DNA from: an uncultured Sulfitobacter sp.
GTDB lineage: Bacteria > Pseudomonadota > Alphaproteobacteria > Rhodobacterales > Rhodobacteraceae
Assembly: GCF_947500075.1 (NCBI RefSeq)
Contig: NZ_CANMQS010000001.1
Coordinates: 744,001-808,000, forward strand
Length of the DNA: 64,000 nt
Direction: 5' to 3'
The notes beneath the pieces were generated by a model. The model ran no database searches, had not been told where the DNA came from, and saw only the letters and a program-made list of their open reading frames with translations. Of this stretch, positions 14,457-58,396 are shown piece after piece. Position numbers and translations under genes: made by a program. The number at the start of each line of letters is the position of its first letter. The first letter of the stretch is position 1.

Positions 14457-14480
14457 GTAGGATGGGTGCTTGCACCCATC
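14457..14480 (+). repeat. REP-like palindrome, copy 1 (CTTG loop)
   Basis: It starts with the tetranucleotide GTAG, followed by GATGGGTG-CTTG-CACCCATC, an 8-base stem with a 4-base loop. A 5' GTRG followed by an imperfect palindrome is the definition of REP elements mobilised by RAYT transposases. It forms an inverted pair with copy 2 between the convergent ettA and RAYT genes and may also serve as a bidirectional terminator. Confidence 0.85.
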
Positions 14481-14503
14481 TTCCTTCCCGGCTGAACCAA
14501 TGT

Positions 14504-14527
14504 GATGGGTGCAAGCACCCATCCTAC
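14504..14527 (-). repeat. REP-like palindrome, copy 2, overlapping the RAYT stop codon
   Basis: Read on the minus strand it is identical to copy 1 over all 24 bases. The TAG inside its leading GTAG is the stop codon of the RAYT gene (14524-14526). Together with copy 1 and a 23-base spacer it makes a BIME-like inverted pair. Confidence 0.85.
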
Positions 14528-15048
14528 GGTTCTCCAAATTCGCCTTCCGCAACTGCGCACCATTCCGGTGGCACACGACCTTCGCGCATATCCCTGTGGA
14601 TCGACGAATACGGCCACGCCGCAGGCTGCGCGACCAGGCCATGTTTCACCGGATTGCCCCAGCAATACATCACATGCTTGCGAAGATCGGTCTCATCTCG
14701 GATGCGGTGCTCCCAAAACCGTCTTTGCCAGACACCCCGTTCCTGCTTTTTTCGCTGTGACGCGCCGCGTGGCCTCGAAATCCCGGTCGCCCGTGAGAAC
14801 CTCGACTTGATCAAGCGCCAGCGCGTTGAAAACGCTGCATCACCGGGCGGTAAAGTCCACATTGCATGCAAATGGTCAGGCAGAATAACCGCCGCTGCGC
14901 AATGGAAGGGCCGTTCTCTCATCGTCAGCTCAAAGGCATCGCGCAGTGCATCAATCTCTCTCAACAGCAAAGAAGAAGAGCGATCCGCCAGCGCGACGGT
15001 AAAGAAGTACGTGGCACCCGATTTACGCAGGCGGCGATAGTTCGTCAT
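14524..15048 (-). CDS. REP-associated tyrosine transposase (RAYT)
   Basis: 174 residues, normal for RAYTs. It has the HUH metal-binding motif DHLHAMWTLPPGD near residue 60 and the catalytic tyrosine helix MYCWGNPVKHGLV near residue 130, matching the family's YIHLNPVRAGLV-type motif. The N-terminal TYFFTVALADR strand also fits the Y1_Tnp domain. RAYTs nick single-stranded REP DNA after a GTRG tetranucleotide. Here REP palindromes lie on both sides, one overlapping the stop codon and one 29 bases upstream of the ATG. The HUH and Tyr residues are intact, so it may be active. Confidence 0.9.
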   Translation of the reverse strand: MTNYRRLRKSGATYFFTVALADRSSSLLLREIDALRDAFELTMRERPFHCAAAVILPDHLHAMWTLPPGDAAFSTRWRLIKSRFSRATGISRPRGASQRKKQERGVWQRRFWEHRIRDETDLRKHVMYCWGNPVKHGLVAQPAAWPYSSIHRDMREGRVPPEWCAVAEGEFGEP

Positions 15049-15076
15049 ATTACAAGTCTTGTCGAAGATGGTTAAT

Positions 15077-15100
15077 GATGGGTGAAATCACCCATCCCAC
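15077..15100 (-). repeat. REP-like palindrome, copy 3 (ATTT loop), upstream of RAYT
   Basis: On the minus strand it reads GTGG-GATGGGTG-ATTT-CACCCATC. It has the same stem as copies 1 and 2 but a different loop and GTGG instead of GTAG. It lies in the leader or promoter of the RAYT gene and in the same orientation as copy 2. Confidence 0.8.
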
Positions 15101-42254: not shown

Positions 42255-42278
42255 GTAGGATGGGTGATTTCACCCATC
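42255..42278 (+). repeat. REP-like palindrome, copy 4, between preT and preA
   Basis: GTAG-GATGGGTG-ATTT-CACCCATC, the same type as copy 3. The preT stop codon (TGA, 42270-42272) lies inside it. In the preT-preA message it would form a hairpin around the stop codon and just before the preA ribosome site. Confidence 0.85.
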
Positions 42279-52313: not shown

Positions 52314-53174
52314 ATGACCGACACCCTCCCAGCCACGCTGCCCCGCGCGGTGACGCCCGCCCAGCAGCAACAGATCATCAACATCGTCCGCCGCGCCGCC
52401 CGTGCTGAGATCACCTCCCGTTTCGGCATTCTGGAACCCGATGAGGTCTTCACCAAAACCCGCAGCGATGACCTTGTGACCATCGCAGACCTCGCGGCAG
52501 AGGCGATGATGACCCGCGCCCTGCAAATCGCCTTCCCCCATGCGCTGATCGTGGGAGAGGAAGCCGCCGCCAAGAACCCGGCCATCGTGGAAGAGATCGC
52601 CGATGCGCCGCTGGCTTTCGTCCTCGACCCCATCGACGGCACATGGAACTTCGCCAACGGTCTGGCGGTCTTTGGCACGATCCTGGCCGTAACCCAGTTT
52701 GGCCGCCCCGCCTTCGGCCTGATCTATGATCCCGTCTCGGATGACTGGGCCATCGCCGATGACGAAAGCGCCGCCCGCATCGACCGCCCCAGCGGGGTGG
52801 AAACCCCGCTCAAAGCCTCCATGGGCAAACAGCTGGAAAACCTGACAGGCTTCATCGGCTATGACATGTTCCCCGCCGACAAGCGCGCAGAACTGCTGGC
52901 CACCTTCCCCTCGCTCGGCCGCACCCACGCCCTGCGTTGCTCGGCCCACGAATACCGCATGATCGCGCAAGGCCGCGCCGACTTCCTGCTGTCGGCTGAG
53001 CTGAAACCCTGGGACCATCTGGCAGGCGCTTTGATCTGCGAACGCGCCGGCTGCCATGTGGAAATGCTCGACGGCGGCCCCTACGACGCCAGCCGCACCG
53101 ACGGCCACCTGCTCGTGGCCCCCGATCGGCCGACGTGGAACCGGCTGAAGAAGGTGTTTTCGTTTTTGACGTGA
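52314..53174 (+). CDS. Inositol monophosphatase-family phosphatase (HisN-like)
   Basis: 286 residues. The metal-binding motifs are GEEAAAKNP, DPIDGTWNFANGL and a C-terminal KPWDHLAGALICERAG. Members hydrolyse inositol phosphate, histidinol phosphate or 3'-phosphoadenosine phosphate; the sequence cannot decide, though histidinol-phosphatase is common in this group. The stop codon TGA overlaps REP copy 5. Confidence 0.85.
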   Translation: MTDTLPATLPRAVTPAQQQQIINIVRRAARAEITSRFGILEPDEVFTKTRSDDLVTIADLAAEAMMTRALQIAFPHALIVGEEAAAKNPAIVEEIADAPLAFVLDPIDGTWNFANGLAVFGTILAVTQFGRPAFGLIYDPVSDDWAIADDESAARIDRPSGVETPLKASMGKQLENLTGFIGYDMFPADKRAELLATFPSLGRTHALRCSAHEYRMIAQGRADFLLSAELKPWDHLAGALICERAGCHVEMLDGGPYDASRTDGHLLVAPDRPTWNRLKKVFSFLT

Positions 53175-53195
53175 TGTGGGTTTCACCCACCCTAC
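53173..53195 (-). repeat. REP-like palindrome, copy 5 (variant), at the HisN-like stop codon
   Basis: On the minus strand it reads GTAG-GGTGGGT-GAA-ACCCACATC, one base shorter and with a changed stem. It overlaps the last two bases of the stop codon. It lies between convergent genes and faces copy 6. Confidence 0.65.
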
Positions 53196-53239: not shown

Positions 53240-53263
53240 GTAGGATGGGTGCTTGCACCCATC
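53240..53263 (+). repeat. REP-like palindrome, copy 6 (CTTG loop)
   Basis: It is identical to copies 1 and 2, more than 38 kb away. It sits 18 bases from the gcvP stop between convergent genes and may act as a terminator or mRNA-stabilising hairpin. Confidence 0.85.
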
Positions 53264-58065: not shown

Positions 58066-58145
58066 CGCGTCCCTGTCCCTTCCAAAGGCCGGGCGCATCC
58101 CTGCGGGAACCGGCATCATCAGACCGCGTGATTGCGGTCCCATAA

Positions 58146-58298
58146 TGCCCCCTCTGTCCTTTCGCCTGAGATCGTTATCCCTTCGGCGGGCGCCTCACGC
58201 GCCACTCTCCAGAGCTGTCCTGCCCGTTACGGTCCTTTGGCCTGAGAGTTTCCGGGGCGGTTGCTCCTTCGGCATCGGCGTGCAACCGATTCTCCCAT
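58146..58298 (-). ncRNA. Tandem glycine riboswitch upstream of gcvT
   Basis: On the minus strand two aptamer cores are visible: GGGAGAATCGGTT with CGCCGATGCCGAAGGAGCAA and CTCTCAGGCCAAAGGACCG, then TGGAGAGTGGC with CGCCGAAGGGATAACG and TCTCAGGCGAAAGGACAG. This is the classic two-aptamer architecture with the GCCGAAGG and CTCAGGC-N-AAAGGAC motifs. Glycine binding turns on the downstream gcv genes. It fills most of the 58066-58396 gap. Confidence 0.93.
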
Positions 58299-58396
58299 AA
58301 CGGTGCCTATTGGTATGCGCGGGTATACGACCACGTCAAGCACACTTGTGCATAGTCCCCTCACATGGTTGTTTGCCCCAAAACGGAGCCACCGGC

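Follow-up and report, generated by a model that had tools for sequence, protein, structure and literature searches.

Does the gene for a REP-associated tyrosine transposase (RAYT) in this stretch of DNA, a 64-kb window, belong with the palindromes scattered around it, and how old are the places that those palindromes occupy? The open reading frame (positions 14524 to 15048, minus strand) is whole and encodes 174 amino acids followed by a TAG stop codon. Its HLH motif and tyrosine are present, which agrees with the sequence-only reading of an intact HUH/Tyr RAYT. In a profile search, the protein matched NF047646 (E = 3.9e-56, 189 bits against a cutoff of 80), and its nearest solved structure was that of Escherichia coli TnpAREP (4ER8; E = 3.4e-42, 147 bits), while a Pfam search assigned it to no family. 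By alignment, the histidine pair of the HUH motif, the tyrosine, and the asparagine of Y---NP correspond to E. coli H59, H61, Y115, and N119, leaving the catalytic residues intact. E. coli residues Q95, E100, and R104 are kept as well, as is the C-terminal Gly-Glu tail, which falls in the columns of E. coli residues 160 and 161. The gene is single copy; a paralog in the same genome is only 61% identical.

The RAYT is flanked by 24-base palindromes led by GTAG or GTGG, as had been claimed for the copies starting at 14457, 14504, and 15077. The copy at 14504 to 14527 (minus strand) marks the 3' end of the RAYT gene, and the TAG inside its GTAG is the RAYT stop codon. Together with the copy at 14457 to 14480 (plus strand), which lies between ettA and the RAYT gene, it forms an inverted pair, a candidate REPIN, at 14457 to 14527. 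Upstream of the gene, the copy at 15077 to 15100 (minus strand) begins 52 nt before the start codon and is the only real REP with a GTGG lead. Two further copies of this family, which we call REP1, are found elsewhere in the window. One lies between preT and preA (42255 to 42278, plus strand), where its minus-strand reading gives preT its TGA stop, and the other (53240 to 53263, plus strand) has an inositol-phosphatase-like gene on one side and a glycine dehydrogenase gene on the other. The sixth palindrome (53173 to 53195, minus strand; GTAGGGTGGGTGAAACCCACATC), earlier listed as a variant, belongs to a second family, REP2. Allowing up to one mismatch, the 12-mer GTRGGATGGGTG is present at six places in the window, where 1.14 are expected, and 0 of 100 shuffles reached six. 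The window also holds a tandem glycine riboswitch of an ordinary kind (58144 to 58307, minus strand; Rfam RF00504) near glycine cleavage genes.

The overlap between stop codon and palindrome is shared by the RAYT orthologs of two other genomes (G055 and G056) and by the 61% paralog, and in a survey of RAYTs with short REPs the stop lay inside GTAG in 26 of 51. We considered this arrangement as a novel trick and rejected the idea, since published work already describes open reading frames that take their TAG stops from GTAG REPs, as well as REPs directly behind rayt stops (PMC3733652, PMC2817692). RAYTs of a second clade (RAYT2), among others, have lost the Gly-Glu tail, and the protein ends at GTAG. 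At three further loci (L088, L095, and L103), the C terminus reads through an inverted REP, giving an ending such as MGEDHPSYG; part of the protein is thus encoded by the REP.

Across the genome of the window (G000; 4.86 Mb in 28 contigs), exact matches to GTRGGATGGGTG numbered 27, and a reversed control pattern gave 0. The matches comprise 23 short palindromes, two long bulged ones, and two that are not palindromic (L022 and L023) and look like chance matches. The short form reads GTRG-GATGGGTG-4 nt-CACCCATC, with a single mismatch in one copy; copies were located by exact pattern, which undercounts degenerate ones. Many copies are identical over all 24 nt. Folded as single-stranded DNA, the short hairpin has an energy of −7.6 kcal/mol (z of about −3.5 to −3.8). 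The arrangement expected of a REPIN, in which two inverted REPs with GTAG outermost move as one unit, occurs at 14457 to 14527 and at C4:134687; the other REP1 copies are single or tail to tail. The two long copies (L014, C4:274659; L015, C4:382121) have the same outer stem, which encloses an inner hairpin set off by a GTT/GTT internal loop. They resemble the bulged REPs of group 2 and share the genome with the short form.

The center of the short hairpin had been divided into two loop classes, CTTG and ATTT. That division did not hold up. Of the 23 short copies, 15 have C-G and 8 have A-T as the ninth stem pair, without a mismatch, around a TT, TC, or TG dinucleotide. CTTG and ATTT are thus more plausibly two states of one structure, a 9-bp stem closed by a 2-nt loop, in which one covarying pair has undergone a compensated change. 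The energy model instead draws 8 bp and a 4-nt loop, and two sublineages would yield the same counts.

We next compared 62 genomes of the genus, which is most likely Sulfitobacter, as one of them (G037) is Sulfitobacter sp. HGT1 (L033 lies within L108). At a threshold of at least 69% identity, orthologs of the window RAYT were present only in G000, G055, and G056. The REP1 12-mer was found 27, 21, and 4 times in these genomes, respectively, the last count being of exact copies in a fragmented, 84% complete assembly, and 0 to 2 times in each of the other 59. The association is significant (Fisher's exact test, P = 2.6e-5), a value that is optimistic because the three genomes are related by ancestry. 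Counting palindromes in relatives that lack the RAYT was the check proposed in the sequence-only reading, and the numbers did not refute it. A second pairing emerged in the same genome. The stop codon of the 61% identical paralog, RAYT2 (G000:C1:623664), lies within GTAGGGTGGGTGAAACCCAC, the REP2 sequence, of which G000 has 13 exact copies, including the one at 53173. REP2 was present in eight of eight genomes with the RAYT2 clade versus 7 of 54 others (P = 1.9e-6). All six coordinates were right, but 53173, assigned to the same family as the others, belongs to this second RAYT/REP pair. The term "self-contained" is only partly apt, as G000 holds two such systems.

Taken together, a single-copy gene of the RAYT family with HUH and Tyr motifs, GTRG-led flanks, a dispersed palindrome that tracks the gene, a shared place after ettA in three genomes, and a REP type that follows RAYT phylogeny (below) suggest a cognate RAYT/REP system, or REPtron, of a known kind in variant form (probability of roughly 0.85). 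Several observations weigh against this reading: about 25 copies, counted by exact match, is low for a REP family; G056 has only four; and the REP1-bearing genomes are related, such that the co-occurrence partly reflects ancestry. We also asked whether the palindromes might have nothing to do with the RAYT and be ordinary hairpins or terminators of mRNA, alike by convergence on a stable stem. Many copies do lie between co-oriented genes, and relatives have unrelated hairpins at the same junctions. However, the 24-nt identity extends over the unpaired GTAG and the loop, copies are confined to genomes with a RAYT ortholog, and they stand on both sides of the RAYT itself. We consider convergence very improbable.

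The REPtron would then consist of the RAYT gene just downstream of ettA and its short GTRG-led hairpins. By analogy with TnpAREP of E. coli, Stenotrophomonas, and Marinomonas, the protein would recognize single-stranded GTAG together with the hairpin and cleave next to this target using an HUH-bound metal and the tyrosine, and cleavage and strand transfer would renew or disperse REP1 and REPIN copies. Binding, cleavage, strand transfer, and movement are all inferred from the enzymes of E. coli, S. maltophilia, and Marinomonas, and for the studied systems, too, the mechanism of REP dissemination is stated to be unknown (PMC8266576). RAYT2 and REP2 would run in parallel as a second pair. Some REP sites appear to predate the REP type now occupying them: at orthologous junctions, species differ in which of REP1, REP2, and a third family stands there in the same register.

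Evidence on the age of the sites came from orthologous positions. The RAYT follows ettA in G000, G055, and G056, and in other genomes ettA has no RAYT behind it. At the same position, G009 has a distant RAYT (L196) and G049 and G052 have remnants (L180 and L185). The region downstream of ettA is a recurrent RAYT position; the RAYT tree does not join the G009 gene to the window RAYT. When about sixteen REP1 loci of G055 were compared with the REP loci of G000, at least five sites coincided, with flanks only about 70 to 85% identical. These are the RAYT locus, L307/L016, L073/L021, and two sites at which the families differ. Before rpsP, REP1 of G055 and REP2 of G000 stand at the identical base, and between atpB and atpE (gene names as read here) the same two families occupy the same position. 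Two other candidate pairs (L081/L007 and L078/L007) were rejected as shared sites, since their register differs. Between preT and preA, where the window has REP1, G039 carries GTAGGGTGGGTTTCAACCCACC in register with it, and the hairpins of G019, G056, and G008 are decayed. The copy at 53240 had no counterpart in the relatives aligned.

Copies identical over 24 bases had been taken as a sign of recent spread. The identity of distant copies is real, but several REP sites must be old, because they are shared with a species whose flanking sequence has diverged by 15 to 30%, which leaves recent spread unsupported. Identity of distant copies may instead reflect continual renewal. Alternatively, the RAYT and its REPs could be relics, with an enzyme that no longer moves REPs and copies left over from an old expansion. 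The low copy number, the sites shared with G055 across such divergence, and the RAYT remnants that follow ettA at this position in G049 and G052 all fit this idea. Yet the catalytic residues are intact, many copies are identical over 24 nt, others lack a counterpart at the same place in relatives, and REP1 is almost absent where the RAYT is missing. On balance, we regard relics as unlikely.

To examine the change of family at shared sites, we read the aroH-rpsP junction in 60 genomes, with gene names taken from our reading of the sequences and site types assigned by eye. The junction holds REP1 in G055; REP2 in G000, G014, G036, and G059 (one mismatch); REP2-like hairpins in G022, G023, and G049; and a third family, REP3 (GTAGGGTGCGCA), in G025, G033, G035, G038 (one base short), and G058. 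Other hairpins occur in roughly half of the remaining genomes, and about 18 have none. On a tree of ettA, the three families require at least four changes among the 13 REP-bearing genomes, compared to a mean of 4.5 after shuffling. Four changes are no fewer than in most shuffles, and the site type thus does not track the species tree. A species tree from DNA downstream of rpsP proved unreliable (long branches, with 19 genomes skipped), and the ettA tree was used instead. In genomes with a live RAYT and a REP at the junction, the family mostly matches a RAYT that is present; G022 is an exception. Upstream of G000 aroH, we also observed a repeat of about 45 nt rich in GTACA/TGTGCACAGG (L317, about 1140 to 1185), which recurs at several further places in G000 and at a few in relatives.

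Overwriting and repeated insertion at hot spots are both possible explanations for this pattern. Under overwriting, a RAYT would replace the hairpin present at a fixed junction by one of its own REP type, keeping both register and orientation, rather than mainly inserting at new sites, and REP positions would outlive REP families. If this were true, orthologous junctions would change REP family when the RAYT of the genome changes, as at aroH-rpsP in G055, G000, and G058. We advance this proposal tentatively and think it rather doubtful. Independent insertion into hot spots, such as CGTA stop codons, has about an even chance of being correct. REP3 of G058 sits among relatives that are free of hairpins at aroH-rpsP, which favors insertion at least once. 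In addition, at the place of CGTAG in filled sites, relatives that lack a hairpin often have CGTAA, and the base before GTRG is C in 19 of the 23 REP1 copies. What hot spots explain less well are the decayed or odd hairpins that many relatives carry in the same register, which are expected if an old hairpin is overwritten or drifting. Several small RAYT/REP pairs can be told apart in this genus, which also includes genomes without them and orthologous junctions with differing families, so that strain comparison could separate hot-spot insertion from overwriting.

The genome also contains a third RAYT-like gene (L030; C2:313863-314294), which belongs to a family that includes L045, L047 to L059, L241, L243, L244, L248, and L249. 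The catalytic Tyr and Asn are absent from the members examined, and the first His of the HUH motif is absent from most. The family is nevertheless under purifying selection (dN/dS of roughly 0.1 to 0.25 in the pairs measured), and at 15 of 15 loci in the genus the gene faces, in convergent orientation, one for a class I glutamine amidotransferase-like protein. It is modeled with a TnpAREP fold (mean pLDDT, 79; Foldseek match to 4ER8, E = 3.7e-14), and the residues aligned to Q95 and E100, which contact GTAG, are mostly kept. We infer that these proteins may be host-owned binders of hairpin DNA, and such catalytically dead relatives suggest that the host has reused the REP-binding fold. Four other relatives without the catalytic tyrosine (L242, L245, L247, and L251) retain at the stop codon a hairpin led by GTAG or GTAA, and GTAA in place of GTAG might mark a loss of cleavage.

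We then mapped REP type onto a RAYT phylogeny, a quick tree with many weak branches. For the 88 RAYTs with a recognized flanking REP, stem type required 22 changes compared to a mean of 56 (minimum, 51) with shuffled labels. The distinction between short and bulged REPs required five changes compared to 29 (minimum, 22), with the bulged class undercounted, as the automatic REP caller overlooks some bulged REPs such as those of E. coli. Within a clade of 52 rows, most of them from Rhodobacterales, all recognized REPs were short except for one borderline case; RAYT relatives from Bradyrhizobium and most of those from gammaproteobacteria had bulged REPs. Corneloup et al. (PMC8266576) associate group 2 with bulged REPs and group 3 with short perfect ones. 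Judged by sequence, the Rhodobacterales clade is outside this published rule, combining E. coli-like proteins with short perfect REPs. The window RAYT resembles group 2 in its protein, being nearest to E. coli TnpAREP and having the Gly-Glu tail, but not its long, bulged REPs (23 short perfect copies versus 2 long bulged ones). Conversely, its REPs are the short, generally perfect palindromes of group 3, but the protein has no N-terminal extension relative to E. coli and retains the tail. We call it group 2-like and do not file it under group 2, because its REPs are short and perfect. Loss of E. coli K82, which touches the bulge, was considered as a cause of perfect REPs and dropped, since Ser, Thr, or Ala is found there in RAYTs with bulged REPs, too. 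As an enzyme close to group 2 that is paired with short perfect REPs, it offers a natural system for finding what recognizes the hairpin.

Among the closest known systems is the E. coli TnpAREP (RayT, b0228) REPtron of group 2, subclass 2.2. It provides the nearest structure, its gene is flanked by GTAG-led REPs, and it shares with the window RAYT the HUH motif, the tyrosine, Q95, E100, R104, and the C-terminal Gly-Glu tail. In contrast, E. coli REPs are long and bulged, whereas those of the window are short perfect palindromes with a stem of 8 to 9 bp, and K82 is Ser in the window RAYT. REPtrons Sm of Stenotrophomonas maltophilia and Mb of Marinomonas, both of group 3, have a similarly short perfect palindromic REP, about 23 nt long and immediately behind GTAG (PMC8266576). 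Relative to these, with group 3 compared by description, the window protein is of E. coli type by sequence and carries the group 2 tail. Members of the GTAG REP super-family share the GTAG-led palindrome, REP termini that often give flanking open reading frames their TAG stops, and repeat-specific REPtrons where genomes hold several families; the super-family is found mostly in gammaproteobacteria, and the text makes no mention of Rhodobacter, Roseo-, or Sulfitobacter (PMC3733652). The REPINs of Pseudomonas fluorescens SBW25 are likewise inverted pairs with GTAG outermost, and that genome also holds several RAYT/REP pairs, each with its own REP type (PMC3116915). Copies there number in the hundreds, as opposed to tens in the genome of the window, where singles and tail-to-tail pairs are common. 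Finally, the "orthoswitch" of REP orthogroups parallels our findings in that REP class differs among relatives with orthologous RAYTs and abundance depends on the cognate RAYT (PMC3686654). In an orthoswitch, old REPs reportedly persist and decay as new ones spread; in the present genomes, one orthologous junction can hold different families in register.
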